Below, piece by piece: positions 601-14,863 of a stretch of DNA of 24,520 nucleotides. Position 1 is the first letter of the stretch; each line of letters begins with the position of its first letter. The notes under the pieces were generated by a model. That model saw nothing but the letters and a program-made list of their open reading frames with translations, had not been told where the DNA came from and did no database searches. The position numbers and the translations under genes were made by a program. This DNA is from a virus: IMG/VR virus record IMGVR_UViG_3300025815_002749, positions 1 to 24,520 of that record. One strand, 5' to 3'.

Positions 601-1587
601 ATGTATGAAAATGTGCCAGTCGGGCTGAGACACGCCTATTCACTCTATGACAGGACACCCAAGCAAGGTATAACCCACACATGCAATTTCCCACACAAGG
701 TAGCCTCTGTGGACGTGGAAGGCAATTGTATGCTCTGCAGATGTGACGCATGGTTGCCCATAGTGGTGGCCAACATCATGGACGTGAGTAATCTGTCTGA
801 AATATGGGAGACCGACCTAGCCCGAAAGTTACAGGACGATGTGGACTCCAAGCGTTTCACTTGGTGTTCTGTTGACTCCTGTGGGATAAGAAAACGGAAC
901 CAAATTCGTGATAGCCATTACATTTCTATTAACGTTGATGAGAGTTGTAATCTCGCCTGTCCCAGTTGCCGCTCGAGTAAGATCAACTGGACATCAGGAC
1001 CCAAGTACGAAAGCAGGATCAGGAAAGCAAATCATCTTACACAGTTGATCAATAGATTTGAGAATCCTCTTGAAGTGATGATGAGTGGCAACGGTGATCC
1101 ATTTGCGTCATTGATATACCGTCCATTGCTGTTGGACATGAAGCCGAAGGAAAATATAGTCCTGAGACTATTGACTAACGGCCTACTGATTAAGAAACTG
1201 ATGCCCAAGATGAGTATCAAAGACAACATCAAGTTTTTGGATATATCCATAGATGCCGGTGACAAACAGACCTACGAGAAGGTGCGCCTAGGAGGCAATT
1301 GGGAAACACTTTGTGATAACCTAGACTACGTGAAAGCAAATTTCAGCAGTCTGGTCACACTCAAATTCGTGCTACAGAAGAATAATCTGGATAGCCTGGA
1401 CAACTTCGTAGAACTGGTCGACAGTTACGGATTCCATGGAAACATAATGCCCATAGAGGATTGGTCGTCAATGAAAGATTTCAAAGATCACAATGTCCTT
1501 GATAAAAATCATCGATTGCATACCAAAGCATTAGAAAAAATACAAGCCCACAGGACAAACCCTAATCTATTTTTCCACGGTATTTAG
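601..1587 (+). CDS. Radical SAM protein with N-terminal twitch/SPASM-like cysteine region
   Basis: At 328 residues this is a radical SAM enzyme: CNLACPSC (Cys116, Cys120, Cys123) is the CxxxCxxC motif that holds the 4Fe-4S cluster cleaving S-adenosylmethionine. GNGDPF at 164-169 takes the place of the usual GGEP motif, and strands VLRLLTNG and FLDISIDAG fit the partial TIM barrel. Before the core, Cys28, Cys43, Cys46, Cys48, Cys89 and Cys94 surround an IWETD..RKLQ segment. This looks like the half-SPASM (twitch) fold that normally follows the barrel, here placed in front. The substrate is unknown. The C-terminus is short, ending soon after the barrel. The stop codon overlaps the converging minus-strand gene by 4 bases. 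Three other radical SAM genes lie in the window. Confidence 0.88.
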   Translation: MYENVPVGLRHAYSLYDRTPKQGITHTCNFPHKVASVDVEGNCMLCRCDAWLPIVVANIMDVSNLSEIWETDLARKLQDDVDSKRFTWCSVDSCGIRKRNQIRDSHYISINVDESCNLACPSCRSSKINWTSGPKYESRIRKANHLTQLINRFENPLEVMMSGNGDPFASLIYRPLLLDMKPKENIVLRLLTNGLLIKKLMPKMSIKDNIKFLDISIDAGDKQTYEKVRLGGNWETLCDNLDYVKANFSSLVTLKFVLQKNNLDSLDNFVELVDSYGFHGNIMPIEDWSSMKDFKDHNVLDKNHRLHTKALEKIQAHRTNPNLFFHGI

Positions 1588-2027
1588 AAAGAACGGGTAG
1601 TCAATCCGAACATCACAGCATCCTTCCGCTTGCGGAATTTGATGTGCTCGTGGTCTATGATGAACACATTACACCTACCACCATACTTCTTCAACACATC
1701 CTCGGCTTCCAGTGGCCTTATGGTTATGTGATCCTCCTCCGGCAATGGACAACGGTACCCCCAGAACATGGGCCACCAGTGCAAGGGATTGATCGAGTCA
1801 TACACTTCCTTCATCGCTATGAGGAATATGAGTGGTGTGATGGTGAGAGGCTCCAACCATAATGGTATGGCATCGAACGTGAGCCAATCTATGAGATGTA
1901 CGGCACCCGTCCATATCAACAGTATCACGGCGAAAACACCCATCATGGGCCAAAACTCGTCCTCCATGTCCAAGTCTTGATTATAATGTGAGTACATGCG
2001 ACGTATCTGTTGCTGACTCAGTTTCAT
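1584..2027 (-). CDS. Small inner-membrane protein, two transmembrane helices, unknown function
   Basis: The product has 147 residues. Two hydrophobic stretches, about residues 27-48 (WPMMGVFAVILLIW) and 55-72 (PLTITPLIFLIAM), predict a helical hairpin with both termini on the same side. A soluble C-terminal tail of about 75 residues contains VLKKYGGRCNVFIIDHEHI. I do not recognise the family. The gene converges on the radical SAM gene (4-base overlap) and diverges from the solute-binding protein gene across 107 AT-rich bases. The orientation against the surrounding genes suggests a separately acquired and separately expressed unit. It could be a regulator of the membrane or of the neighbouring transporter, but nothing in the sequence proves this. 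Confidence 0.65.
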   Translation of the reverse strand: MKLSQQQIRRMYSHYNQDLDMEDEFWPMMGVFAVILLIWTGAVHLIDWLTFDAIPLWLEPLTITPLIFLIAMKEVYDSINPLHWWPMFWGYRCPLPEEDHITIRPLEAEDVLKKYGGRCNVFIIDHEHIKFRKRKDAVMFGLTTRSF

Positions 2028-2134
2028 ATAAATTAATTATGTCAGCAGATAACTACTAACATATATATTGTTGTAACGCTCCCTGGGAAGTTCACAACAA
2101 ACAATTTCCAAACAAACTAATACAAGGATAATCT
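2028..2134. other. AT-rich divergent intergenic region
   Basis: This 107-base region separates two divergent genes and must hold promoters for both, but I cannot assign a confident -35/-10 pair. It contains AT-rich stretches (ATAAATTAATTATG, ACATATATATTG) and, at 2124-2128, the Shine-Dalgarno AAGGA six bases before the ATG of the binding-protein gene. No exact TAAATA occurs on either strand. Confidence 0.5.
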
Positions 2135-3193
2135 ATGAAGAAGATGATAGCATCTATCGCCTTTTTGTTCTTTACGGCGGTGTCTGCCATGGCAGACTAC
2201 ACCATATACCTACCCACCAAGCCAGGATCTGGACTTGACCAATGGGCACAGGTTGTGATAAAAGAGCTCAAGAAACATATAGACGGAGACGTCAAATCTG
2301 TACATATACCAGGTGCGAGACACAGACTGGGCATGAACAAGTGGCAGAACGAGAATAGGTTCAACGAAGGAGCCATCACAGTCACGGGAGGCACAACCTC
2401 GGTCAACACTCTAGTGGTGTCCGGTGTCGAATACGATTACACCACCTGGGACGCAATCGGTGTACAGTTGCTTGACATCTTTGTAGGTAAGAGGAAAGAC
2501 TGGGATCCAAAGGACGGTGGTATGGTGTTCGGTAACGACCACGCGGCCGGTGACGTGACGGGCATGGTGCTGATGTACTGTGGTAACCTGGACGGCAAGA
2601 TCGAATCGTACAAGAAGTGTGTGGACGAGGACATGAAGTACGTCAAGGGTGTAGATGACAAACAGGGCACACTGATGTTTGCCAATGGCGAGTTCAACGT
2701 GTTCAGGGGAAACCCAACCGCATGGACCAAGAAGATAGCCAAGTTCGAACACGGTGAACTCTGGTTCACACAGGGAGTGTACGACAAGAAGAAAAAGAGG
2801 ATTGTGACCAATCCCAACGCACCAGGCAAGGACTTTGACACAGTTTTCAAAGAAACCTGGGGTGAGGAACCCAAAGGCGAACTTTATGATGCCTACAGGC
2901 TCGTACAGTTCCAAAACGACTCACTACAGAAAGGTCTATGGGTCAACAAGGATGCCCCACACAGGAAAAAACTCGTGAAGGCATTGAAGAAGATGTTGAA
3001 AGATCCTGAGTCCAGGGCGATCATTGCCAAAGCGTCCGGCGGTGATTACGAATGGGCCATAGGTGAGGAAGCAGACAAGATAGTTGAGTATCAGCGATCC
3101 CTTTACACTGAGAAAAAACTCAAGGATCTAGTCTGGTGGTTCAATAATATATTTGGTTGGAAGGCCGAATTTAAACCTGAACTATTAAAATAA
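2135..3193 (+). CDS. tctC: Periplasmic solute-binding protein of a tripartite tricarboxylate transporter (TctC-like)
   Basis: The 352-residue product has a clear signal peptide: MKK start, hydrophobic core IASIAFLFFTAV and an AMA cleavage site before Asp21, so it is exported to the periplasm. The mature start carries PTKPGSGLDQWAQ (27-39) and IPGA (58-61), which sit where TctC/Bug-family proteins have their conserved P.GGxxD..AR and NxPGA loops that bind carboxylate ligands. The remainder is divergent, and the ligand cannot be predicted. The strongest support is the TctA permease gene starting one base after its stop. A real Shine-Dalgarno (AAGGA, 2124-2128) and a leader distinguish it from neighbouring leaderless genes. 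Family members bind citrate, other di-/tricarboxylates and varied organic acids. Confidence 0.75.
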   Translation: MKKMIASIAFLFFTAVSAMADYTIYLPTKPGSGLDQWAQVVIKELKKHIDGDVKSVHIPGARHRLGMNKWQNENRFNEGAITVTGGTTSVNTLVVSGVEYDYTTWDAIGVQLLDIFVGKRKDWDPKDGGMVFGNDHAAGDVTGMVLMYCGNLDGKIESYKKCVDEDMKYVKGVDDKQGTLMFANGEFNVFRGNPTAWTKKIAKFEHGELWFTQGVYDKKKKRIVTNPNAPGKDFDTVFKETWGEEPKGELYDAYRLVQFQNDSLQKGLWVNKDAPHRKKLVKALKKMLKDPESRAIIAKASGGDYEWAIGEEADKIVEYQRSLYTEKKLKDLVWWFNNIFGWKAEFKPELLK

Positions 3194-3194
3194 T

Positions 3195-4631
3195 ATGGAC
3201 TACGCACTCTGGTGCCTGCTAGGAACAGTATACGGAATACTGTTGGGTGTCATACCCATGGCAGGCGCCGGAACTGCGATGCTTCTGGTATTCTCATTCG
3301 CAGGATACTTTGATCCCAATCCCTACTACGGTTTAATATTTTTAATAAGTGTCATAGCGGCATCTAGTACAGCGGATTCATACACATCGCTACTCACGGG
3401 CATACCAGGAGCCTCGACCACAGCGGCATCCATCATCGATGGATACAAGATGAGCAAGAATGGAGAGGCCGCCAAGGCGATCGGTATAGCAATGGCGGAC
3501 AGCACATTCAATGGTGTGTTCTTTGGTATACTCGCATTCGCACTACTGCCTTTCTACGCCCCCATCATCTACAAGTTTGGTGTGCCTGAACTGTTCATGT
3601 TCATGACACTGTCTATAGCGTGTGTGGCGTTCATTGTTTCCAAGAATTTCTGGTTGAGCTGTGTGGCCATAGCAATAGGTGCCTTCATAGGATTGATAGG
3701 TATAGATCCACAGACTGCGGGTCCGAGGTTCACGTTTGGAACCTTATATCTACAGGATGGTGTGCCCATCATCATGATGATAGCGGGACTATTTGGCATA
3801 CCAGAACTAGTGTCTGGTTTCCACTTCGGCCAGAACAGGCCAGCACCCATCAACAACTATTTCTCACAACTGTTCGACGGCTTCCGTACCACACTAAGAT
3901 TGTGGCGGGATTCCATACGCGGAGGTTTCATAGGATTCATAGCGGGCATACTGCCAGGTGTGGGACCTGTAGGAGATATGTTAGCCTATGGTGCCACTGT
4001 CAAGGCACACCCCAATGACAAGTTCGGTGTGGGCAATCCCAAAGGCCTGGCAGGATGTGAAGGGGCCAACAACGCACAGAAGGCCGGCAGTCTGATACCG
4101 ACCGTGTTGTTCGGTATACCGGCATCTCCTTTCGCGGCCATATTCATGAGCATGTGTATAACATTCGGCCTGGACGTGGGAAACCCTTTCATGCTGGAAG
4201 ATACGAAATTCCTCTCCCTCTTGGGTTATGGATTTGTTGGAGCAACCATACTGACTTTCATCATCTGTATATTCACATCCAAACTTCTAGTGAAAATACT
4301 TGAGATCCCTTATTGGATTTACGCTGGGATCATCTTTGCGATCATAATCTATACCTGCCAATCAGTCACGGGTTTGTACATGGACTATGTGACACTGGCC
4401 GCATGTAGTATTTTAGGTTTGATATGTTACAAGTTCAAAATAAGTCGACCCGCAATATTACTGACCTACATAATAATAGACAAGTGGCAGAATCTGGGGC
4501 AACAATGGTTGACCATGTACACCTGGGATCAGATGCTGGTCCGACCGTTATTTCTCGCTTTACTTGTGATGGTTTTAGTGTTAGTATATAGGAGTATAAC
4601 ACAAAAAAATAAGGGCATTGATTATGCTTAA
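3195..4631 (+). CDS. tctA: Tripartite tricarboxylate transporter large permease subunit TctA
   Basis: This 478-residue polytopic membrane protein is close to the normal TctA length of about 500. Family signatures appear in order: GIPGASTTAASIIDGY (69-84), GIDPQT followed by RFTFG (169-182), GILPGVGP (251-258), CEGANNA (288-294, usually PESANNA) and FGIPASP (306-312). Roughly ten to twelve hydrophobic segments fit the duplicated TctA fold, which imports organic acids using an ion gradient with the periplasmic binding protein. The first conserved loop reads GVIPMAGAG (18-26), where cellular homologues usually have G.LPGLG. The gene is intact, one base after the binding-protein gene, and probably translationally coupled to it. 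No TctB (small membrane subunit) follows. Codon usage (frequent ATA for Ile) resembles its neighbours, so it is not an obvious recent import. Confidence 0.93.
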   Translation: MDYALWCLLGTVYGILLGVIPMAGAGTAMLLVFSFAGYFDPNPYYGLIFLISVIAASSTADSYTSLLTGIPGASTTAASIIDGYKMSKNGEAAKAIGIAMADSTFNGVFFGILAFALLPFYAPIIYKFGVPELFMFMTLSIACVAFIVSKNFWLSCVAIAIGAFIGLIGIDPQTAGPRFTFGTLYLQDGVPIIMMIAGLFGIPELVSGFHFGQNRPAPINNYFSQLFDGFRTTLRLWRDSIRGGFIGFIAGILPGVGPVGDMLAYGATVKAHPNDKFGVGNPKGLAGCEGANNAQKAGSLIPTVLFGIPASPFAAIFMSMCITFGLDVGNPFMLEDTKFLSLLGYGFVGATILTFIICIFTSKLLVKILEIPYWIYAGIIFAIIIYTCQSVTGLYMDYVTLAACSILGLICYKFKISRPAILLTYIIIDKWQNLGQQWLTMYTWDQMLVRPLFLALLVMVLVLVYRSITQKNKGIDYA

Positions 4632-4642
4632 TAACTAGAACA

Positions 4643-5194
4643 ATGATAGATCAAAAAGCACAAGACGAATTTTACAAGAACCATTGGCAATCCAACATAC
4701 ACCTGTTCAAGCATTCTGGTGAAAATCTAGTGGACGAGATCAATAAACTCAATCCCACATTGGTCATCGATGCCGGTTGTGGTATAAACTTCCTCAAAGG
4801 TAAGATAAAGAATCTAATTGGTTATGATCCGGTGTTCAAAGAAGCAGACATCAACTGCACCCATCATGATGCCCCGTTCAAACACGAGTCGGCGGACGTG
4901 ATATTGGCATTAGGATCAGTCAACTGGGGCGATCACGATGACATAGCCAACATGCTGATCAAACTGAAATCCTGGCTGAAGCCGGGAGGCAGACTCTACA
5001 TGAGGGGAGCACCGGGGGGATACAAGAATGATCAAGGACTTAAATGGTTCCAGTGGGGCACCAAGGAGATAGATTACTTTGCCCGACTGATGGACTTCAC
5101 CGTGGAGAGGCTAGAGTTAGAACACAACACGGACGGAACAATCGCCGAACGCGAATGGCCCCACAGATACGTCTGGTTATATCGTAGGAAATAA
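4643..5194 (+). CDS. Class I SAM-dependent methyltransferase
   Basis: This 183-residue Rossmann-type methyltransferase has motif I VIDAGCG (41-47) for S-adenosylmethionine, the acidic ribose-binding position in GYDP (60-63), LALGSVNWG (88-96) after the fourth strand, and WLKPGGRLYM (111-120) at the post-motif turn. The N-terminus FYKNHWQSNIHLFKHSGENL closely matches residues 55-72 of the methyltransferase at 9080-9733 (FSKYWQNDMKKWKYSG), and both have KGKI(K/N)NL after motif I, so the two are paralogues. It lacks the 50-residue N-terminal extension of the other copy. The substrate is unknown; surrounding genes suggest a glycan or small molecule. It follows tctA by 11 bases, and its 3' end overlaps the converging amidotransferase gene by 18 bases. 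Confidence 0.85.
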   Translation: MIDQKAQDEFYKNHWQSNIHLFKHSGENLVDEINKLNPTLVIDAGCGINFLKGKIKNLIGYDPVFKEADINCTHHDAPFKHESADVILALGSVNWGDHDDIANMLIKLKSWLKPGGRLYMRGAPGGYKNDQGLKWFQWGTKEIDYFARLMDFTVERLELEHNTDGTIAEREWPHRYVWLYRRK

Positions 5195-5731
5195 AATATC
5201 CCTCACAGCATTGGGCAACACAGGATCTGACATCCTCTCCGGATGCCACACTATACCAAACACTGGCAGTGATTTGTGTCGGAAGGCCTCTGGATTTCCG
5301 TCTTTGTCCATGGCCAATGATACGAAGTCCTCGGGTAGTCTTTCGATCATCTGTGTGTGATAACTGTTAACGGTGTAGATCTTCTCTCCCATGGTCACGG
5401 AATGGTCTTTGTCAACGTGACCTTCTATAGACCCATTCACCCCTCCCGCGAGCTCGTTAATGACGAAGGCTCCGTGGCAGATACCTATTATGGGTTTGCC
5501 TTTGCTAATCGCGTGGGCATACAAGGTATTCTCGGTCTGATTCCTTGCTACACTATCCGGACCTCCCGTCAGTAATAAGCAGTCATAATCATTTTCTGGT
5601 ACTTTATTATTATTTGCCACGGGAAGTATGTTGTGTCCTGCCAAGAAGTCATAATACGCCCGTTCCAACGCATCAAGCACAAAATACCTAGGCGGTTTTA
5701 CATACTCCTGTTGACTCACTAGTATTTTCAT
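5177..5731 (-). CDS. Class I glutamine amidotransferase / peptidase C26-like protein
   Basis: The 184-residue product starts MKILVSQQEY. TGGPDS (55-60), GICHGAF with nucleophile Cys85, and WHPE (162-165) with His163 and Glu165 give an intact catalytic triad of the triad-type glutaminase fold. The fold hydrolyses glutamine or gamma-glutamyl bonds; relatives include GuaA glutaminase domains and the gamma-glutamyl-GABA hydrolase PuuD. No synthetase domain is attached, so it either acts as a free hydrolase or supplies ammonia to a partner. An upstream in-frame ATG at 5755 would add eight residues, but I prefer 5731 because a minus-strand TAAATA ends five bases before it, as at many starts here. 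It diverges from the diiron gene. Confidence 0.87.
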   Translation of the reverse strand: MKILVSQQEYVKPPRYFVLDALERAYYDFLAGHNILPVANNNKVPENDYDCLLLTGGPDSVARNQTENTLYAHAISKGKPIIGICHGAFVINELAGGVNGSIEGHVDKDHSVTMGEKIYTVNSYHTQMIERLPEDFVSLAMDKDGNPEAFRHKSLPVFGIVWHPERMSDPVLPNAVRDILFPTI

Positions 5732-5736
5732 GCAAT

Positions 5737-5742
5737 TATTTA
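5737..5742 (-). promoter_or_regulatory. Late promoter core for the amidotransferase gene
   Basis: On the minus strand GTAAATAATTGCATG places TAAATA five bases before the ATG at 5731. This spacing decides between the two possible starts of the amidotransferase and predicts a leaderless transcript. Confidence 0.6.
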
Positions 5743-5762
5743 CGTGTATTACCATTTCATGG

Positions 5763-5768
5763 TAAATA
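5763..5768 (+). promoter_or_regulatory. Late promoter core for the diiron protein gene
   Basis: TAAATA at 5763-5768 would give a leader of roughly 25-30 bases before the ATG at 5803. That leader contains a Shine-Dalgarno, AGGAG at 5791-5795, seven bases before ATG. This leadered arrangement contrasts with the leaderless pattern of neighbouring genes. Confidence 0.5.
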
Positions 5769-5802
5769 TCTTTGTATACAAATAAAACCTAGGAGATAAA
5801 AC

Positions 5803-6495
5803 ATGTTATCAGGAAAAGAATTCGTAGAAAAACTTGAGCAAGATAACGAAGCCCTATTCAGAGCATCAGAGTTACAGATCAAGCACTACTACGAGAACAC
5901 AACAGACAAAGAAGAGTTGATTGATAACTTCACAGGTCGTATGGTTAACGAGAGAATGAACATGGAAGAAATTTCAAGGGAGATCGCGGCACTTCCAGCC
6001 GGAACAGATCCTGAGAAATTGGTTCTACTTTCAAAACAAGCACACGACGAAGCAAAACACTTTCAATTCGTAAAAGAAGTTGTTGAATACCTAAAAGGTG
6101 AGAAGATTGACATGCAGAAGGCAGTAGAAAGCCATGCAGAGAGATTACACCAAAAAGGTGCGGCAATGATCAAGAAGTACAACTGCAACAACAATCCATT
6201 GATGTTGGCTATGTACCAATTGATAGCAGAAGGCAGAGCGGCGAGAAACTGGGCTATGATGGCCGAGTGTATCGAAGACAAATTCATTTCTTCAAGATAC
6301 GCAAAGATCGCCAGAGATGAAACTTTCCACGCTTCGATCGGAAGAATGGAACTTGAGAAACTTTGTGAAACACAAGAAGCTCAAGACGAGATCAACTCTG
6401 TTGTAAACGAGTTCAGAAAAGATTTATTCACAATCACTTCAAGCAAGACTGGCACACTAGAAGAAAGTGCTAAGTTGATGGAAGTGTACGCATAA
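5803..6495 (+). CDS. Ferritin-like diiron protein, probably highly expressed
   Basis: This 230-residue all-helical protein carries the full carboxylate-bridged diiron ligand set in ferritin-like order: Glu50 (VNERM), Glu83xxHis86 (DEAKH), Glu143 (IAEGRA) and Glu173xxHis176 (RDETFH). Such four-helix bundles store iron or activate oxygen (ferritins, bacterioferritin, ribonucleotide reductase R2, various oxidases). I cannot place it in a named subfamily, so oxygenase/oxidase versus iron storage is open. The gene stands alone: TAAATA promoter core, leader with AGGAG, and a strong rho-independent terminator 22 bases after the stop. Its codons (AAA, GAA, TTC, CTT preferred) differ from neighbours and resemble those of the gene at 15690, which has the same layout. 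Together these suggest abundant expression during infection. Confidence 0.8.
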   Translation: MLSGKEFVEKLEQDNEALFRASELQIKHYYENTTDKEELIDNFTGRMVNERMNMEEISREIAALPAGTDPEKLVLLSKQAHDEAKHFQFVKEVVEYLKGEKIDMQKAVESHAERLHQKGAAMIKKYNCNNNPLMLAMYQLIAEGRAARNWAMMAECIEDKFISSRYAKIARDETFHASIGRMELEKLCETQEAQDEINSVVNEFRKDLFTITSSKTGTLEESAKLMEVYA

Positions 6496-6516
6496 TAAAA
6501 TCTTAAGACAAATACT

Positions 6517-6546
6517 AAAGGGCGGTAATTTTATCGCCCTTTTTTT
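6517..6546 (+). terminator. Rho-independent terminator after the diiron gene
   Basis: Stem AAGGGCG (6518-6524) pairs with CGCCCTT (6535-6541) around a 10-base loop and runs into seven Ts (6540-6546). ACGGCTTAAATA follows directly, so a late promoter core begins seven bases after the T-tract. The terminator at 16123-16159 has the same stem and the same arrangement. Confidence 0.9.
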
Positions 6547-6552
6547 ACGGCT

Positions 6553-6558
6553 TAAATA
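6553..6558 (+). promoter_or_regulatory. Late promoter core for the 2OG oxygenase gene
   Basis: TAAATA is followed by five bases (CCAGT) and the ATG at 6564. There is no Shine-Dalgarno. It lies immediately behind the terminator of the previous gene, so transcription is reset here. Confidence 0.65.
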
Positions 6559-6563
6559 CCAGT

Positions 6564-7436
6564 ATGGAACACAGCAAAGATTATTCACAGGATATATTAA
6601 AAAAGATAGACGAGGATCTACAGGACTCCGATCAAGCGATCAAAAGATTGAAAGCACACTCAGAGGCCAACGCAGTTAAGACAGGCAGGAAGTTGGAATA
6701 CGGCAAGAGCCGTTGGGACTACGAGAAGAAGAGGGCACTGGAGAGGGGAGCCTATCACTTTGACTGGAGCAGGAAAGACAACATCGAGGACGTGTTGATG
6801 TTCCATGGCAACGTCGACATGGACTGCGACTACTTCATTGACACATACGGAGACAAGGCACTGGACAATGCCGTCCACTGGGCAACACGAAACAAGAGTG
6901 TTGGAGAGAACTACGGCATAGACCAAGAGGTGTATGACATCGTCAGGTCAGGCGGTGATCCCGAGGCCAAGATATACGGCAGGGCAAACATGTTCACTGA
7001 TCCAAAAGCAGTGGCACTGGCAGAGGGACTGCTTGGTCTTTATGACTATGAATTGAAACTTCACTCACAAGTTTGTGGCCAACTACTACACATGCACATG
7101 GACAACTTCGCGGCCAGATTAGACAGGCAAAACAGTTTTGACGAATTAGATTATGATGTTGACCCCAAGAAGGTGCACAGATTTGTTGTGTTTCTCAATG
7201 ATTGGAGCATGGGACAGATATGGCATCAAGGTACAGCGGTGCACACGCACTGGAAGGCCGGAGACATCATCAGTTGGCACTGGCAGGACTTCCCGCATGG
7301 AACGGCCAACATGGGTTGGGACACAAGATACATCCTGCAATTCACCGGCAGGACTACAGACAAGACTTGGAAATTTATAGAAGGAACCAACAAGGACTCC
7401 AAACACATCCTTGACATCCACGACAACAACAAGTAA
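6564..7436 (+). CDS. Putative 2-oxoglutarate/Fe(II)-dependent dioxygenase
   Basis: The product has 290 residues. The C-terminal half shows a double-stranded beta-helix pattern with the iron triad and 2OG anchor in the usual order and spacing: His178-x-Asp180 (HMHMDN), distal His245 (FPHGTAN) and Arg255 ten residues later (DTRYILQF). The strand HRFVVFLNDW and the turn KAGDIISWHW between them fit the fold. Enzymes of this family hydroxylate proteins, nucleic acids or small molecules using oxygen and 2OG; they are frequent in marine myoviruses. The N-terminal 70 residues are charged and helical (residues 1-35 possibly coiled). It opens a transcription unit that continues with the sulfotransferase-like gene 9 bases downstream. 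The substrate is unknown. Confidence 0.72.
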   Translation: MEHSKDYSQDILKKIDEDLQDSDQAIKRLKAHSEANAVKTGRKLEYGKSRWDYEKKRALERGAYHFDWSRKDNIEDVLMFHGNVDMDCDYFIDTYGDKALDNAVHWATRNKSVGENYGIDQEVYDIVRSGGDPEAKIYGRANMFTDPKAVALAEGLLGLYDYELKLHSQVCGQLLHMHMDNFAARLDRQNSFDELDYDVDPKKVHRFVVFLNDWSMGQIWHQGTAVHTHWKAGDIISWHWQDFPHGTANMGWDTRYILQFTGRTTDKTWKFIEGTNKDSKHILDIHDNNK

Positions 7437-7445
7437 TATTAAAGA

Positions 7446-8042
7446 ATGTACATACTAGTGACAGGTGCTCCAGGTTCTAAATGGAGCAGTGTGGTGAAGA
7501 ACATCTACTGGTCCGAGAACATAGATCACACAGATTATTCAGAGAAGAGGACCTACTGGCACGACGCTGACACACCAGGAACAAAACAACTGATGCACAC
7601 GGGGGCGTATTGGGATCCAGGAATGGAATTCGACAACAGTCGGGACGAATGGGACAAGCCATTCTCGGGCACAGGCCACAGGATCATAAAGTCACACACG
7701 TTCGCACACCAGCTGGAGGAACTGAAGACGCTGGGATACCCTATCGTGCTAGTACGCAGAAGCAACATAGAATGTTATGACTGGTGGAAACTGTGTGGAG
7801 AGTTCAGCATCACATATCCCAACTATCAATACTTCGAGAACTTGGACCGGATGTGGACGCACATACAGGATGAAAACACAGATATCACACGGTTCATACA
7901 GCAAAACCTAGACAGGATAACCTGTCCCGTGGACAACTTCGACCTGTGCCGGGTGCTGGGAATAAAAGAACCAGGCCCTAGGGACAGCATACATACACAT
8001 AACTACGCGAACAAGGACATCAAAGTCTACGTGTACAAATAA
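7446..8042 (+). CDS. Sulfotransferase-like P-loop protein
   Basis: The product has 198 residues. TGAPGSKWSS at 6-15 follows the first beta strand and resembles the P-loop/5'-phosphosulfate-binding loop of sulfotransferases and related kinases. VLVRRSNIECYDWW around residues 101-114 fits the 3'-phosphate-binding strand and helix (usually R.P....S). RIIKSHTF before it resembles the conserved K.H motif near the catalytic site. I infer transfer of sulfate from PAPS to a hydroxyl group of a glycan or small molecule; kinase activity is an alternative because the loop is Walker-A-like. Proteins of this look occur in marine T4-like phages. It follows the oxygenase gene by 9 bases, and no separate promoter is evident. 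Confidence 0.62.
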   Translation: MYILVTGAPGSKWSSVVKNIYWSENIDHTDYSEKRTYWHDADTPGTKQLMHTGAYWDPGMEFDNSRDEWDKPFSGTGHRIIKSHTFAHQLEELKTLGYPIVLVRRSNIECYDWWKLCGEFSITYPNYQYFENLDRMWTHIQDENTDITRFIQQNLDRITCPVDNFDLCRVLGIKEPGPRDSIHTHNYANKDIKVYVYK

Positions 8043-8064
8043 AAAAAAATACTTGTAAAACTTT

Positions 8065-9039
8065 ATGATATTTTTAATCACTAATGACCAATTTAACCTA
8101 GGAAACGTTTTCCTAATCTGGTCTGTGCATTACCTGAGCGGAAGCGATGATTATTATGATGGTAGAATCGATGCAAAAAGACCAATACCAGACAACCCTT
8201 TATTAAGAGTCACGGCACATAAAATGAAACCAAACTTTGTGAGAACCATTGAATCATTTCTTACTGTGTTAGACAGAATTCCAAAAGATCATACTATCAA
8301 TCATATTAAGTTCCAGATTAAAGCCTTTTCATTGGAACAACATCATAGAACAAATCACGAATTACAAATGATGTCGTCTAGCAAAGGCATCAAATGCATA
8401 AACATGACATGTGCTGACAACCAGCACCTTGTTGGTTTTTTACGACACGACATAGAACAACCACAATGGCAAAAAGACATGGACATAGTCACTGAACATT
8501 GTAAACATTACTGGCCTTATTTTTTCGAGAACGCATCTATTTTCCAAGATAGATTAAAAACGTTCCATGGTATTAGAGAAAACATAGCATTCAACTTAAG
8601 ATTAAATGATTTTTGGACGCACCTCCCACAAAGAAGTGATAACGATTTAATATATCATTGCCAGTATGATCATTGGGTCAAGGATGGCCTCGATGAAATG
8701 AAAAAGGTGTTACAATTTCTTGGATTGGAATGTAAAGAAGAAAGGGTTGATACATGGTGCGAAATATATAGCGATTGGAGTAGAATTCATACTCCTTATC
8801 TCGACTTCTGCAATGACATCCACAAAATAATCGAGTGCATAGTGAACAATAAGTCTATGGATCTAACCAAATACAACCTAGATGTACTAAAAGAGGCCGT
8901 GATTCTTCATTTATTGATGTTCAAACATGATCTAAATCTCAAACTACCAGTGGATCATTTACCACAAGATACAAAACTGATATTTCCTTTGCTGGAAGAA
9001 AATCAAAGGACCGGTTTAGAAAAACTGTATCACAATTAA
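8065..9039 (+). CDS. Conserved phage hypothetical protein (324 aa), AT-rich gene
   Basis: I do not recognise a named family. The product starts MIFLITNDQFNLGNVFLIWS, has no signal peptide or convincing membrane helix, and its C-terminal half is helical (DVLKEAVILHLLMF). It contains DNDLIYHCQYDHWVKDG and YSDWSRIHTPYLDF, rich in Trp, Tyr and His. The initial beta strand followed by a GN-type turn, and the position behind a sulfotransferase-like gene, would suit a second glycan-modifying or sulfotransferase-like enzyme, but no catalytic motif is clear. The gene is visibly richer in A and T than the flanking genes, with long A runs just upstream, which suggests separate acquisition. Coding is secure because the frame is long and open. 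Confidence 0.75.
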   Translation: MIFLITNDQFNLGNVFLIWSVHYLSGSDDYYDGRIDAKRPIPDNPLLRVTAHKMKPNFVRTIESFLTVLDRIPKDHTINHIKFQIKAFSLEQHHRTNHELQMMSSSKGIKCINMTCADNQHLVGFLRHDIEQPQWQKDMDIVTEHCKHYWPYFFENASIFQDRLKTFHGIRENIAFNLRLNDFWTHLPQRSDNDLIYHCQYDHWVKDGLDEMKKVLQFLGLECKEERVDTWCEIYSDWSRIHTPYLDFCNDIHKIIECIVNNKSMDLTKYNLDVLKEAVILHLLMFKHDLNLKLPVDHLPQDTKLIFPLLEENQRTGLEKLYHN

Positions 9040-9079
9040 CGGTCATAGACAATTCGGTTAATATATTGTAAAGTATAAC

Positions 9080-9733
9080 ATGAATAAAAGAATATTTGCC
9101 CAACTATTAGCAGACAGCCAAAACGATCTAGAAAAAATAACACAACCATACATCTTGGAAACGTTTGGCGTAGAAGTAAAGAGATGTGAAACCATAGAGC
9201 AATATGTGGAGGCTATAGACGACGCCTGCCTACACAAATACTTCTCCAAGTACTGGCAGAACGACATGAAGAAGTGGAAGTATTCAGGACTTGCGTTGAT
9301 AGACGAAGTAAACAGTCTCAAACCTAGAGCGGTGTTAGATGTAGGGTGTGGCTACAACGAGTTCAAGGGCAAGATCAACAATCTCGTCGGGATAGATCCC
9401 TACAATGATCGGGCGGATCTCGAGGTCAGCACAATGAACTACAAGACCGATCAAAAATTTGATGTGATACTGTGCCTGGGTTCCGTAAACTTTGGTAGCC
9501 GTGACAAGATCATAGCAGAGGTGGGCAGGTGTGTGAACCTATTGGCGGACGGAGGCACAATGTTCTTCAGGGTCAACCCGGGAATACAGCACGACCGACC
9601 CGAGGCCCGTTGGATCGAGTTCTTCAGTTGGAACGTGCCATTCATCATAGAGCTGGCCGAGATGTTCAATCTACAGGTGCTTGACATCAGAGATGACACC
9701 AACTCACGCAAATACTTCGTCTATAAGAAATGA
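9080..9733 (+). CDS. Class I SAM-dependent methyltransferase (paralogue of the one at 4643-5194)
   Basis: The product has 217 residues. Motif I is VLDVGCG (85-91), the ribose-binding acid is Asp106 in GIDP, LCLGSVNFGS (131-140) follows the fourth strand, and LLADGGTMFF (154-163) marks the turn before the fifth. From residue 55 on it aligns with the methyltransferase at 4643-5194 (shared YWQ/HWQ, SG..L(I/V)DE(V/I)N.L.P and KGKI.NL.G.DP). It has an additional N-terminal region of about 50 residues (KRIFAQLLADSQNDLEK...). The methylated substrate is unknown. Its stop overlaps the next start by four bases (ATGA), so the SGNH-like gene is likely translated by coupling. Upstream AT-rich sequence at 9040-9079 may carry a promoter, but I could not define one. 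Confidence 0.85.
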   Translation: MNKRIFAQLLADSQNDLEKITQPYILETFGVEVKRCETIEQYVEAIDDACLHKYFSKYWQNDMKKWKYSGLALIDEVNSLKPRAVLDVGCGYNEFKGKINNLVGIDPYNDRADLEVSTMNYKTDQKFDVILCLGSVNFGSRDKIIAEVGRCVNLLADGGTMFFRVNPGIQHDRPEARWIEFFSWNVPFIIELAEMFNLQVLDIRDDTNSRKYFVYKK

Positions 9734-10422
9734 AAAGACTGTTAATAAATGGTTGTAGTTTTGGAGCATGCTGGACTCCCCCTAAAGAATTTGTAAACAG
9801 TCTTGGTTGTGATCAAATTGTCAATTTATCAAAAGGTGGCACCTGTTTTCAGAGAACCTGCAGAAGCACAATTGAATGGATAGCACAAAATGGAGCACCT
9901 GCAATGGTCCTGATACCAATCACTTTTTCACACAGGTGGGAGTTGGCTCTTAATCAAGACGAGGACAAGATAGACGGCAGTTGGATACCTTTACAAAATT
10001 CAAATTATCTTTCAGATGAATACAACCTGCAGGATATTTCAATACAAAATGTCAAAAAGTTAGTGGATGATTATTACAAAATTATTCCAAACACTAAGAC
10101 TTATTGGGATAAAATGTTTACGGACATCATTATGATTTCTGGTTTCTTGGATCAACAAAGAATTCCGTATCTTATGTGGGACATGTGCAATGGATTTGAC
10201 AAAAGTCACATTAAAAGTTACGAAGGATTCCACAAGATCAATTTCATAGCAAAAAATAACAGGATCATAGATATCTGGAAATTCTGTGGTAATAGGTTCA
10301 TGAGGGATAGTATGCCAAGAGACCTTAGAGATAAAACACCAGAATTTGCATTCCATCATGCGCCGGAACAATACAAAGAGCTAGAAAAGTATCTTATAGG
10401 TTATATAAAACAAAATCTTTAG
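9730..10422 (+). CDS. Putative SGNH-hydrolase-like protein
   Basis: The product has 230 residues. It opens with beta strand KRLLINGCSFGACW: the GCS at 8-10 sits where GDSL/SGNH enzymes have block I (GDS with catalytic Ser). NLSKGGTCFQRT (32-43) fits block II with its conserved Gly. FHHAPEQYKELEKYL near residues 209-223 resembles the C-terminal block V His that completes the triad. Family members deacetylate or de-esterify glycans and lipids, which would suit the surrounding sulfotransferase, methyltransferase and glycosyltransferase-like genes. The assignment is by short motifs only and is moderate. The gene overlaps the methyltransferase by 4 bases and is clearly AT-richer than it, so the two may have different origins despite coupled translation. 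Confidence 0.5.
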   Translation: MKRLLINGCSFGACWTPPKEFVNSLGCDQIVNLSKGGTCFQRTCRSTIEWIAQNGAPAMVLIPITFSHRWELALNQDEDKIDGSWIPLQNSNYLSDEYNLQDISIQNVKKLVDDYYKIIPNTKTYWDKMFTDIIMISGFLDQQRIPYLMWDMCNGFDKSHIKSYEGFHKINFIAKNNRIIDIWKFCGNRFMRDSMPRDLRDKTPEFAFHHAPEQYKELEKYLIGYIKQNL

Positions 10423-10456
10423 TAGACTTATGCTAGAATTGTGCTACAATAAAGTG

Positions 10457-10462
10457 TAAATA
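10457..10462 (+). promoter_or_regulatory. Late promoter core for the 99-residue gene
   Basis: TAAATA, six bases (CCTACA), then the ATG at 10469, with no Shine-Dalgarno. A weak sigma70-like pair, TAGACT and TACAAT separated by 16 bases, lies just upstream within 10424-10452. Confidence 0.6.
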
Positions 10463-10468
10463 CCTACA

Positions 10469-10768
10469 ATGCAAAAACACACTAGAAGCCTATTAGAAGA
10501 ATTAAGCTCAATGCCTCTCAAACGAGATAAGGAAGAGGTGGTCGAGAGCAGGGCATCTCACATACTGGAATCAGCAATAAGGCTGATGCACTATATTAGA
10601 GAGAACTTTGATCAAGATACTGCATTTAAACTGGAGAAGAAATTCAACTCTGCACTTAAGAATATGGACGCCAGCAAATTCTCAAAAGGTGTGGCACGTA
10701 TCAAAGAGAACAGAGATATCAAACAGAACGTGCTGAAGATCCGAGACGGCGAATACCAAGAGGACTAA
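10469..10768 (+). CDS. Small helical conserved phage protein (99 aa)
   Basis: The product starts MQKHTRSLLEELSSMP and is almost entirely helical and charged (SRASHILESAIRLMHYIREN, FKLEKKFNSALKNM). It has no cysteine, signal peptide or membrane segment. I recall similar small proteins lying directly upstream of the ligase-like protein in marine T4-like phages, but no function is known. Here the next gene begins three bases after its stop, so the pair is probably one translation unit, and the proteins may work together. A TAAATA core six bases before the ATG supports the start. Confidence 0.62.
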   Translation: MQKHTRSLLEELSSMPLKRDKEEVVESRASHILESAIRLMHYIRENFDQDTAFKLEKKFNSALKNMDASKFSKGVARIKENRDIKQNVLKIRDGEYQED

Positions 10769-10771
10769 TCA

Positions 10772-11989
10772 ATGTTGATAGAAGATGTCCTTACAGAATT
10801 CAAAAGGACGCACCTAGAACACATCGAGGACATAGTGATCACGGACGGCTATGAAGGTGGCAAGGCTGTTGTGGAATTCTTCAGGGGACTGCTACTCACA
10901 CTTAAGGGCACGAGTTCAGAAGCCGTAAAGGTTTCTGTGAAATGGGACGGTGCACCAGCCGTGGTGTGTGGAACCAATCCAGACAACGGCAAGTTCTTCG
11001 TGGGCACAAAATCAGTGTTCGCCAAGAACGCAAAGATCAACTACACCAAGCAGGATATAGCAAACAATCACGGCACGGACGACTTAGGGCAAAAGTTGTT
11101 GAAGTGTCTTGTGCATCTCAAGAAACTCGATATGACCGGTGTTTACCAAGGAGACCTCTTATTCACAGATGAGGACATCACTCGTAAGAACATAGACGGC
11201 AAGCCAAACCTCACATTCACACCCAACACCATCACATACGCTGTGCCAGAACAATCAGACCTAGGTACCCAGATAGATCGTGCCAAGGTGGGCATAATAT
11301 TCCACACCACATATGTGGGCGATACGCTGGCCACGATGGATGCGCAGGCGGGCGCGGACGTGGAATCATTTACACGATCACCGGACGTGTTCTTTGACAA
11401 CGCAACATACAAAGACGTGTCGGGATCAGCCAAATTTACTGACGCGGAGACAAAACAATTTTATAATGGAATAGAAAAATTAGAAGCACTACTTAACAAC
11501 GTGCCGAGAAACCTAGCCAGCGTGTTGGGACAGAACCAAGACTTCGTGCCCATGTTCCAGATGTACATCAACGCCCGAGTCAGGGAAGGCGAACTGCCAA
11601 ACGATGCTAACAAGTTCTTACTTGGATTTCGTAAGTTCTACAATGACAGGATGGCACAACAGATGTCAGGACTGAAGGCACAGAAAGCCTTGCAACTGAG
11701 ACAGGACAAGATGAAACAGATGCCCGTTTTCCTAAACAGGGCCAAGAAACCATTACAGGCCATGCTGATGTTCTACAGGGCGGTGCAGACTATGAAGGCG
11801 TTTGTGCTGAGAAAAATGAACCAGGCGCAGGCTATAGGATCATTCCAACAGACTGATTCGGGACTAGAGGTCACAGAGCCAGAAGGATTTGTTGCTGTAG
11901 ACAAGTCAGGCAGTGCTGTCAAGTTGGTTGATAGGTTGGGATTCTCGAGAAGGAATCTCACAGCGATCAACAAGTTCAAGAATAACTAA
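10772..11989 (+). CDS. Phage protein with covalent nucleotidyltransferase (ligase-type) motifs
   Basis: This 405-residue protein shows the motif series of the DNA/RNA ligase and capping-enzyme superfamily. VSVKWDG (54-60) is motif I KxDG, with Lys57 as candidate nucleotide-accepting residue. GVYQGDLLF (123-131) is in the motif III position, VGIIFHTTY (173-181) in IIIa, PEGFV (370-374) is motif IV and AVKLVDR (382-388) motif V. Between IIIa and IV lies an unusual helical insertion of about 185 residues (roughly 182-365, for example MAQQMSGLKAQKALQLRQDK), where typical ligases have only some tens of residues. I believe relatives are annotated only as a domain of unknown function (DUF6267) in cyanophages. 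RNA or DNA end joining, or another AMP/GMP transfer, is possible. It is translated with the upstream 99-residue gene. Confidence 0.68.
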   Translation: MLIEDVLTEFKRTHLEHIEDIVITDGYEGGKAVVEFFRGLLLTLKGTSSEAVKVSVKWDGAPAVVCGTNPDNGKFFVGTKSVFAKNAKINYTKQDIANNHGTDDLGQKLLKCLVHLKKLDMTGVYQGDLLFTDEDITRKNIDGKPNLTFTPNTITYAVPEQSDLGTQIDRAKVGIIFHTTYVGDTLATMDAQAGADVESFTRSPDVFFDNATYKDVSGSAKFTDAETKQFYNGIEKLEALLNNVPRNLASVLGQNQDFVPMFQMYINARVREGELPNDANKFLLGFRKFYNDRMAQQMSGLKAQKALQLRQDKMKQMPVFLNRAKKPLQAMLMFYRAVQTMKAFVLRKMNQAQAIGSFQQTDSGLEVTEPEGFVAVDKSGSAVKLVDRLGFSRRNLTAINKFKNN

Positions 11990-11994
11990 CATAA

Positions 11995-13275
11995 ATGAAA
12001 TCCAAACCATTCCCTATCACGCAGGGTATCCCTTGCCAGTTGAAGTGGAACCACTCAACCGTGTTCTTGACCATGGGCACAACTGCCAGTTGCCACAGGG
12101 TCACACACGACCCCTATGAAATACGTGATGGCCAGATGGAATTCCACAACATCAAGACCAAACTGGAGGCGAGGGAAAAGATGTTGCGGGGAGAGTGGCC
12201 AGGCAGAGGATGTGAACACTGCAGGAGCACGGAGGACACCGGAGGACACTCCGATAGGATGTCTCACCTGGATATGCCTGGAGTGATCGCGCCAAAGGAA
12301 CTACAACAAAATCAGAATGCAATCTCCGTCACACCGACACAGTTAGAGATATACTTCAGTAACACCTGCAACCTCAAATGTGTCTACTGTAACAGCAAAT
12401 TCAGTTCTACAATAGACAACGAGAATAGGATCCACGGTGAGTGGGCGCATGGTGATCAAAAAGCATTAGGTAGACACCTTTACCTTCCGGGAAAAATCGA
12501 AATTAATCCCAACATTAAGGAGGACACTGACAAATTATTCGTGTGGCTAGAAGAACACCTACACGAGTTGAATAAATTAATGATTCTAGGTGGTGAACCA
12601 TTCCTACAGAAAGAGACCGAAAGGATGGTGGAACTGCTAGAACGCATACCAAACCCTAATCTAACATTGGTCATTTTCTCAAATCTCACAGTAGACACTG
12701 TCAAGGTGCAGAAATGGTTAGCCAGAATGTGGAGATTAGTGGAAAAAGGAACTTTACACAATCTGCAGGTAGTGGGCAGTCTTGACTGCTGGGGGCCGCA
12801 GGCAGAGTACGTAAGAAACGGATTAGATCTCAAGAAATATGTTTCTAACTTTGAATTTATTCTAAACAAAACTAAAATTACACCCAGTATCAATAGTGCC
12901 TTGATGGCACTCACTGTACCAACTCTACCAGATCTAATTAAACAGATGAACACATGGTCAAAGATCAGGGAGGTGTATTGGAGTGGAATGAAGGCCGGAG
13001 ACGCAGGACGTCCTTATCTCAACCCAACCATATTTGGTGATGCCATACTGTCATTGGGAATCAATGAAGCGATAGAGATCTACGAGAGTAATGGTGATCC
13101 AATAAAGGAAGCGCAACTTAACAATCTCACAGGCATACGGAAGGAGTGTGAAAATACCGAACCCGATCTATTACAACAGAAATTATTGAAGACTTATCTC
13201 AAAGAGTTGGATAGGCGACGTGGCACGGACTACAGGACACTTTTTCCAACAATTGAAAATTTATTGCCATCCTAG
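11995..13275 (+). CDS. Radical SAM protein with N-terminal twitch domain
   Basis: The product has 426 residues. CNLKCVYC (Cys125, Cys129, Cys132) is the 4Fe-4S/SAM motif, followed by ILGGEPF (197-203) and a barrel strand VIFSNL. Ahead of the core an additional cysteine set (Cys14, Cys33, Cys73, Cys76) encloses EAREKMLRGEWPGRGCEHC, the layout of a twitch (half-SPASM) auxiliary iron-sulfur domain placed N-terminally; the name 'twitch domain-containing radical SAM protein' exists for such proteins. The same architecture is seen at 20682-21965 and, less clearly, 601-1587. Substrates are unknown; twitch/SPASM enzymes modify peptides, proteins or small molecules. It starts 5 bases after the ligase-like gene without its own recognisable promoter, and its end overlaps the converging glycosyltransferase-like gene by 15 bases. 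Confidence 0.88.
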   Translation: MKSKPFPITQGIPCQLKWNHSTVFLTMGTTASCHRVTHDPYEIRDGQMEFHNIKTKLEAREKMLRGEWPGRGCEHCRSTEDTGGHSDRMSHLDMPGVIAPKELQQNQNAISVTPTQLEIYFSNTCNLKCVYCNSKFSSTIDNENRIHGEWAHGDQKALGRHLYLPGKIEINPNIKEDTDKLFVWLEEHLHELNKLMILGGEPFLQKETERMVELLERIPNPNLTLVIFSNLTVDTVKVQKWLARMWRLVEKGTLHNLQVVGSLDCWGPQAEYVRNGLDLKKYVSNFEFILNKTKITPSINSALMALTVPTLPDLIKQMNTWSKIREVYWSGMKAGDAGRPYLNPTIFGDAILSLGINEAIEIYESNGDPIKEAQLNNLTGIRKECENTEPDLLQQKLLKTYLKELDRRRGTDYRTLFPTIENLLPS

Positions 13276-14283
13276 GAATTCATTCACTGTTTTCCTTACT
13301 TGCGATTGATAGGCACTGTTGTCCCAGAAAGTGTTGAGGTTGTGTGCTCTCAGTTTCTTCGATGAAAGGTAGGCATCCTTCCAATCAAAGTCCTTGAGTT
13401 TCTCAATTAATTCCACAATCTTATGTGCTCTCTTGTCCGGATCCGGCTCTAGGTCGTAACTCTCATCAAAGTACTGTCCAAAGGTCATAAAGCCCATCTC
13501 CCGGATTTTCTGGAGGTAGAGGTGATTGCCGTGAACTATGAAAAACTGTTGGCAGATGATTGGTTTCCATAACTTCTCTGTGATAAAGATTCCTTTGCCG
13601 TTGTTGGTTTCGCTTACCAGCGAACAGGCGGTGTGCTCATAGGGTCGCATGTAGATGTCCTGATCCCGACCATAGATCGGATAGTTCTTTGGGTCAACAT
13701 CTGGCAACTCGTAGGCTGGATCTAGCCTAACGGGTTCATCTAATCCTATGAATGATTTCAGACTGTTGTCTATTAGATTTTTATCTGTCAGAAGTTGCCA
13801 CAACAGTCGCCTATGTGCCCGTGGTTGTTTGTTCAGGTAGAGGTATTCATAGGGTTTGTGTGAATGATCGCAGTTGAATGTACGCCCTTTGTATTTTTCC
13901 CTCATCATGTACCAGAACCATGAAGCACTACCGAACCACTTCGTGTAATTGTATCCTTGCAGTAGGTCATAGAACTTCGAGCCGACCATGTTTTCTTCGC
14001 TCTCCCACGGACGTGCTAGGATGAATTTGAATCCGTTCTGTAGTAAGAGGTCCATCCTACTTTTCAATTGTGAAACAAATTCTGGATTGTCCTCGAAGCC
14101 GTCCCTGTGATCGATTATGCAGTAAAGTTGATCATATCCGTCCCAATCGTAAGTGTGTAAATTCCAGTAGTTTGGTTCAAAGGTACATTCTACATGATTC
14201 AACTCCGCACTCTTAATGAAGTTCTCAAAATGTAGGTGTTGTCCCGAGAACATTAGGTCAGTGAGAATAAAAATCTTGCGCAT
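13261..14283 (-). CDS. Putative glycosyltransferase-like protein
   Basis: The 340-residue product starts MRKIFILTDLMFSGQHLHFE. The central part YLYLNKQPRAHR (147-158) and, further on, CSLVSETNNGKGIFITEKLW (220-239) with KPI after it, resemble a group of glycosyltransferase-like proteins from marine phages and bacteria. In these, a FITEK...KPI segment precedes a strand and a GN.....L...GF.TF element; here HGNHLYLQKIREMGFMTF follows. That is a plausible nucleotide-sugar binding half of a GT-B fold. Donor and acceptor are unknown. An upstream in-frame ATG at 14463 would add 60 residues but overlaps the next gene heavily; 14283 gives a normal N-terminal beta strand. It is transcribed against its neighbours and diverges from the gene at 14303. 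Confidence 0.62.
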   Translation of the reverse strand: MRKIFILTDLMFSGQHLHFENFIKSAELNHVECTFEPNYWNLHTYDWDGYDQLYCIIDHRDGFEDNPEFVSQLKSRMDLLLQNGFKFILARPWESEENMVGSKFYDLLQGYNYTKWFGSASWFWYMMREKYKGRTFNCDHSHKPYEYLYLNKQPRAHRRLLWQLLTDKNLIDNSLKSFIGLDEPVRLDPAYELPDVDPKNYPIYGRDQDIYMRPYEHTACSLVSETNNGKGIFITEKLWKPIICQQFFIVHGNHLYLQKIREMGFMTFGQYFDESYDLEPDPDKRAHKIVELIEKLKDFDWKDAYLSSKKLRAHNLNTFWDNSAYQSQVRKTVNEFLGWQ

Positions 14284-14289
14284 TTGCTC

Positions 14290-14297
14290 TATAAATA
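14290..14297 (+). promoter_or_regulatory. T4-type late promoter TATAAATA
   Basis: A full TATAAATA octamer. The ATG at 14297 overlaps it and could not be on its transcript. The ATG at 14303 lies five bases downstream, the same spacing as at other starts, which selects 14303 as the start of the following gene. Confidence 0.7.
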
Positions 14298-14302
14298 TGG
14301 GT

Positions 14303-14863
14303 ATGCTTACACCATTTTTAAAGTATGTATCTGAGGGCAAGGTAATAAGGCGCCATAGTGACTTGCAGAGATTCACTTTCCCAGAAGTCACCGAGAGGAT
14401 ATACCTCAGTTTCCTAGCACTATCACTCATGAGCCAACACAAGGACACGGCAGGTTTCGCCAAAGCATACGCGGATCAGACCATGGCCAAGGGCACGTTC
14501 GACCAGGTCAGGATGATCAACAACGATCTCGCCAACATGCTGGCCATAGTGTCAGGTGACCCAGAGATAACAAAGAAATTAAAGAACAAGAACCAAGCCC
14601 AGGCCATGAGGCAGAGGCAACCGGTGCCAGTGATGGCGCTGAGGAGGTACATGAGAACATGGGAGGATCACTACAAGAACCTCACACAACTGGAAAGGGC
14701 CTTGAACATAACAGATGCGAACCTCAAAAACATCAGGCGATCAGTGGCCAACTACCACAGGTTGGAATCAAGACTGAAACTGCAGACGCTCCACAGGCTA
14801 CAACAACAGTTGCAGGCCAAACTGCCTAATACGGACCTACACAAGAAATTCAAGGAACTATAA
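14303..14863 (+). CDS. Helical conserved phage protein (186 aa)
   Basis: The product starts MLTPFLKYVSEGKVIRRHSD and is mostly helical, with a basic C-terminal half (LKNIRRSVANYHRLESRLK, HRLQQQLQAKL) that could form a coiled coil. There is no membrane segment or catalytic motif, and I do not recognise a named family. Longer in-frame starts exist at 14216 and 14297, but 14216 would run antisense into the diverging glycosyltransferase-like gene and 14297 lies inside the TATAAATA promoter; 14303 is five bases after that promoter. The stop codon overlaps the start of the following Cys-rich gene (TAATG). The basic helical character would suit an internal virion or scaffold-type role, which is only a guess. 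Confidence 0.65.
   Translation: MLTPFLKYVSEGKVIRRHSDLQRFTFPEVTERIYLSFLALSLMSQHKDTAGFAKAYADQTMAKGTFDQVRMINNDLANMLAIVSGDPEITKKLKNKNQAQAMRQRQPVPVMALRRYMRTWEDHYKNLTQLERALNITDANLKNIRRSVANYHRLESRLKLQTLHRLQQQLQAKLPNTDLHKKFKEL

Follow-up and report, generated by a model that had tools for sequence, protein, structure and literature searches.

Tripartite tricarboxylate transporters (TTT) such as TctCBA of Salmonella and Bug/BctCBA of Bordetella have a large permease of the 12-helix type, TctA, and an adjacent binding protein (TctC or Bug) with a signal peptide. In bacteria, TctA is normally accompanied by TctB, which can be missed by its profile, and the published TctA motif, G-Hy3-G-Hy3-G-Hy2-P-G-Hy-G, is present in TM1 and in TM7, with both halves ending in P-G-x-G (PMC5812351). 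The viral gene pair described here shares with these systems the TctA type, its conserved loops and TM7 motif, and the adjacent signal-peptide protein, but it lacks TctB, its TctC is too divergent to be detected by PF03401, its TM1 motif is P-[MAIV]-A-G, and it is phage-borne. In a second set of relatives, the alphaproteobacterial TctA-TctB fusion systems, a divergent TctC is likewise found adjacent to TctA, but the permease has a C-terminal TctB domain and a catabolic operon context, whereas the viral permease carries no such domain.

Auxiliary genes for phosphate uptake (pstS, phoA and similar) occur in cyanophages, where the phosphate ABC system is usually represented by the binding protein alone. 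The viral TctC resembles the pstS-type products as a binding protein that would alter host uptake; the difference is that a permease is carried with it, and that the putative substrate is organic. TTT-type genes have been seen on marine viral contigs before. A tctA domain hit was reported on a viral contig from SUP05 single cells (PMC4164917; again in PMC6359870), in a viral set that also included 2OG-Fe(II) oxygenase genes (PMC4164917), and tricarboxylate transport genes were noted in passing beside viral norB/nirK on a myovirus scaffold (PMC8115048). The mentions in PMC4164917 and PMC8115048 are brief and do not extend to pairing, TctB analysis, the cassette or jumbo phages, all of which are treated here. 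No earlier description of the pair, of the absence of TctB, or of the cassette or jumbo forms was found in the open literature, a search that covered neither subscription papers nor preprints.

The TctC-TctA pair and its phage context

The stretch of DNA analysed (the window) is the virus record IMGVR_UViG_3300025815_002749, 24,520 bases in length. Window genes match T4-like families (phrog_455, exonuclease, tail-spike and virion-protein), and the 405-aa protein specified by 10772-11989 is 44% identical to a protein of Pelagibacter phage HTVC008M and about 40% identical to cyanophage proteins, which bears out the original prediction that the pair lies within a T4-like genome. The gene order of the window is repeated in 16 IMG/VR contigs from separate metagenome records (TctA 80–100% identical), with conserved phage flanks on both sides of the pair, and in a 56-kb relative the region continues into nrdA, nrdB, PAAR and exonuclease genes. 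The Tct genes sit inside a genuine phage genome. That the locus is chimeric through misassembly, or is host DNA carried along in a viral contig, is exceedingly improbable: although the window by itself is a fragment of 24.5 kb and two of its nearest contigs hardly differ from it, this order is shared by 16 contigs of different metagenome records that have phage genes to either side and reach up to 56 kb, and empty and swapped versions of the site exist.

The two ORFs are intact and one base apart, as had been predicted. The tctC-like gene (2135-3193, plus strand) encodes 352 aa, and tctA (3195-4631, plus strand) encodes a large permease of 478 aa with about 11–12 predicted helices; PF01970 covers the latter over its full length in a Pfam search (E = 1e-89, 301 bits). 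A Shine-Dalgarno sequence had been taken as a mark of acquisition, and an AAGGA-like site is indeed present upstream of tctC (2124-2128, plus strand), but this is not unusual, as about one third of the window's genes have one. The pair was also thought to lie directly between two minus-strand genes, which is incorrect, since the next gene downstream, directly 3' of tctA, is a plus-strand methyltransferase-like gene (4643-5194; PF08241).

The binding protein is as divergent as first supposed, with no match in Pfam (including the TctC family PF03401), PHROGs or NCBIfam, and its homology becomes visible by profile-profile comparison. Direct searches, among them a profile search of the bacterial operons, gave weak, consistent matches to alphaproteobacterial TctC proteins, several of which adjoin TctA genes that are themselves among the closest to the viral TctA, and the TctC form of sister phages with reversed gene order reaches alphaproteobacterial TctC at E = 6e-18. 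When 24 viral and 5 bacterial TctC sequences were compared as profiles, they matched over 303 columns (probability 99.8, E = 6e-30), and the bacterial profile in turn matches solved Bug and TctC proteins. Judged by these matches, the window protein is a real TctC homologue, with a predicted periplasmic, solute-binding role and a Sec-type signal peptide recognised by eye (MKKMIASIAFLFFTAVSAMA; 2135-2194, plus strand); the protein has one hydrophobic segment, at residues 4-22. Built from close relatives only, the AF2 model of TctC was poor (pLDDT 51), and a fold search with that model was uninformative. One related contig (L185) has two different TctC-like proteins (7315-8361 and 10660-11745) with just one recognised TctA nearby, and this permease might thereby accept a second ligand.

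Several other features of the window were noted. Four radical-SAM-type genes (601-1587, 11995-13275, 19688-20689 and 20658-21965) are present within these 24.5 kb of phage sequence; Pfam matches to Radical_SAM and SPASM were obtained for the first, and the presence and strand of the four differ among relatives. Two long ORFs on opposite strands (13261-14463 and 14216-14863) overlap by about 250 bases, an arrangement seen again in several relatives; the overlap may be real or a product of misannotated starts. A TAAATA-like sequence, possibly a late-type phage promoter, occurs upstream of 6564, 10469 and 16176, ahead of several genes that have no Shine-Dalgarno sequence.

TctB, the TM1 motif and bacterial relatives

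The contigs were searched for a TctB gene in two ways. PF07331 (TctB) had no match in 42 viral records, comprising the window and its 16 relatives (17 in all) and 25 more, and the same search was positive in control genomes. Because TctB is poorly conserved and can be missed by a profile (PMC5812351), a small neighbouring protein with about four predicted helices was also looked for, and none recurred in the surroundings of the pair across the window and 20 diverse loci. The viral permease itself stops before the C-terminal TctB domain seen in cultured bacterial relatives. Neither method recovered the subunit, in agreement with the original prediction, and since neither a separate nor a fused TctB was found, the pair is filed here not with the complete TTTs but as a putative TctB-less variant that would work in the same manner. 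The 147-aa, two-helix protein encoded on the minus strand at 1584-2027 was considered as a TctB stand-in and rejected, as it also borders 13 sites without a transporter and was not seen next to the pair in jumbo phages.

Several TTT systems are often present in one marine alphaproteobacterium, and a host TctB could serve the viral pair. If the pair worked only in this way, the phage would contribute the binding protein and permease, both new, and the host the rest of the complex. We regard dependence on such borrowing as unlikely. Viral groups with GC between 0.33 and 0.51 carry the pair, a spread that implies varied hosts, and the pair stays TctB-free across these groups; a poorly conserved TctB would also be an unreliable partner (PMC5812351). 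Against this stands the fact that TctB is fused, as a domain, to the TctA proteins that are the best cultured relatives, suggesting that the permease once worked with TctB.

The altered first loop of TctA (GVIPMAGAG), noticed from the outset, is real. The TM1 motif reads GTVYGILLGVIPMAGAG (3222-3272, plus strand), in which P-M-A-G replaces the P-G-x-G of the published definition (PMC5812351), while sequence comparison finds the TM7 motif, GFIAGILPGVG (3933-3965, plus strand), to be kept. In all nine viral TctA sequences compared (9/9, from different viral groups) the first half reads P-[MAIV]-A-G and the second-half motif is retained, so that the change is, on this alignment, a trait of the viral group. 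Two bacterial relatives, with P-A-L-G at the TM1 motif, are also off the published form. No solved TctA-like structure was found when one was looked for.

This departure from the family motif counts against TctB-independent transport. It also suits a role directed at the host in place of import, whereby the pair competes with or jams a host TTT or excludes other phages at the membrane; phages do carry membrane proteins for superinfection exclusion. Even with the motif altered in all viral groups compared, we consider such a role very unlikely, because the core loops are conserved (STADSYTSLLTGIPG and EGANNAQK..IPTVLFGIPA), selection on TctC is about as strong as on TctA, and the binding protein is always kept beside the permease: TctC adjoins TctA in 65/65 loci with enough flank, a count that, like the others made on these loci, includes near-identical contigs and does not represent independent events.

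The nearest cultured relatives of both genes are in alphaproteobacterial operons on plasmids of Pseudorhodobacter, Thalassospira, Rhizobium and Alloyangia, with identities of about 28–35% for TctA and 20–31% for TctC. These operons often adjoin a gene for 4-oxalomesaconate tautomerase, with tcuAB present as well in Thalassospira, and the neighbouring genes serve the metabolism of 4-oxalomesaconate and, in one case, tricarballylate, but at an identity of about 22% the viral ligand cannot be read from this context. A TctA tree was made from 41 viral and 6 bacterial rows, the bacterial sample being small and from plasmids only and the joining branches long, and in it 41/41 viral rows fell on one side with full support, which suggests a single origin of viral TctA. 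Two pattern scans of 84,980 species genomes retrieved no bacterial relatives; as the patterns were built from closely related viral sequences, this would argue only against a near-identical chromosomal copy.

Viral forms and the cassette site

A second form of the pair, in the order TctA-TctC, is present in at least 66 contigs, and is 43–44% and 34–37% identical to the window's pair. A scan with both forms gave 398 related stretches, with new groups among them. The intermediate group is 51–58% identical and includes contigs of 138,652, 146,604 and 157,498 bases. The jumbo form is 47–49% identical (only 40% in contig L337), is found on contigs of up to 342,607 bases, and was represented by 37 contigs in a separate scan. 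All viral forms together amount to about 140 contigs, and most relative contigs are fragments. Among 19 large records tested, the T4 major capsid protein gp23 was detected in 7, including those of 306, 322 and 342 kb, and a terminase domain in 6. The 138- and 146-kb records have neither, and their phage nature rests on the IMG/VR classification and gene content. Neither TctC form matched any of 50,697 deposited phage records, and matches in deposited phages (Salmonella, E. coli and faecal contigs) at 23–30% identity were set aside, as they look bacterial and are without a binding protein. On a 157-kb, gp23-bearing contig, a protein that appears PstS-like (phosphate-binding) by eye is encoded about 2.5 kb from the Tct pair (L183, 4492-5502).

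Both tctA and tctC are intact and under strong purifying selection. Median pN/pS values within the window's form are 0.11 for TctA, 0.14 for TctC and 0.07 for the oxygenase w290, and the third-position GC of tctA spans 0.21–0.57 where the protein is at least 80% identical to the window's TctA. A chimeric assembly and a scatter of decayed copies, the outcomes named beforehand as fatal to the original prediction, are rejected by the recurrent phage-flanked loci and the low pN/pS (about 0.1).

The pair lies at a variable site (2028-10468) between the TMmin gene (1584-2027, minus strand) and w99 (10469-10768), which holds an insert of 3.8–8.4 kb if occupied and 55–791 bp if empty. Relatives of the site were collected by a scan with the 405-aa neighbour, and among the best 80 of 332 related stretches, which were kept for comparison, there were 18 complete loci with the Tct pair at the site and 13 empty ones. 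Occupied sites have either the TctC-TctA order of the window or, in sister phages, the second form. Of the proposed acquired cassette, the mobile cassette stands, given the occupied, swapped and empty sites, but a single acquisition from a host is not supported, since the pair is one member of a broad viral group in which jumbo T4-like phages are also represented.

In the window, the type I cassette carries genes for a class-I glutamine amidotransferase/peptidase C26-like protein (5177-5755, minus strand; Pfam) and a ferritin-like/R2lox-like di-iron protein (5803-6495, plus strand; weak matches), both conserved in relatives. The same two genes recur next to Tct pairs in several phage groups that otherwise differ, and are also found near the pair in contigs L185, L186, L191, L192, L223 and L224. 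Further downstream is w198 (7446-8042, plus strand), a GAPGSKWSS protein judged sulfotransferase-like by eye, which is at most 3.5 kb from TctA in 34/65 loci.

The linked putative oxygenase and the proposed role of the pair

A gene that accompanies the pair in different viral groups is w290 (6564-7436, plus strand), the product of which is predicted to be a 2-oxoglutarate/Fe(II) oxygenase with an HxD...H triad, a distal Arg and a jelly-roll fold. The family has the arrangement H178xD180...H245...R255, of which H178 and D180 are invariant and H245 and R255 nearly so. The AF2 model has a pLDDT of 81, and its best Foldseek matches are P4H and other 2OG oxygenases (E about 1e-6, with low TM-scores of 0.3–0.5). 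A w290-family protein is encoded within 3.5 kb of the pair in 57/65 loci, in many of them immediately after it, and none was recognised nearby in the other 8/65. In one jumbo-type contig (L197), a short membrane protein that is MscS-like by eye (9557-9886) lies between TctA and the oxygenase.

Taking these data together, we think it probable that the pair is a two-component form of a TTT in which a binding protein and permease import a small carboxylate independently of TctB, and that phages gain and lose it as a cassette. TctC would be exported to the host periplasm, there to bind a small carboxylate and pass it on to TctA in the inner membrane, and TctA would most likely move the compound inward with a cation gradient and without TctB. 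The cassette, at its one fixed site, would be gained, lost or swapped between its two forms. Because the cassette usually holds a predicted oxygenase, metabolism directed by the virus during infection is probably fed by the imported compound or uses it as a substrate. As to the ligand, 2-oxoglutarate or another C4–C6 di- or tricarboxylate may be proposed speculatively. The first candidate is 2-oxoglutarate, because it is the co-substrate of the linked oxygenase, and we see this compound itself as possible rather than likely. More doubtful still is the wider proposal that a viral TTT branch, long kept in marine T4-like and jumbo phages, has turned into a TctB-independent two-component importer supplying 2-oxoglutarate (or the substrate) to the co-carried oxygenase, as an import-and-modify module active in infected cells.

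Organic-carbon import by phages is rarely documented, and here a set of binding protein plus permease is conserved in many marine phages. Since relatives are carried by some 140 contigs, giant phages of more than 300 kb included, viruses appear to have been reshaping nutrient uptake by their hosts for a long time. The viral pair offers a simple natural test of the need for TctB in TTT transport, and its metabolic purpose can be tested directly through the two swapped versions, the empty sites and the oxygenase linkage.
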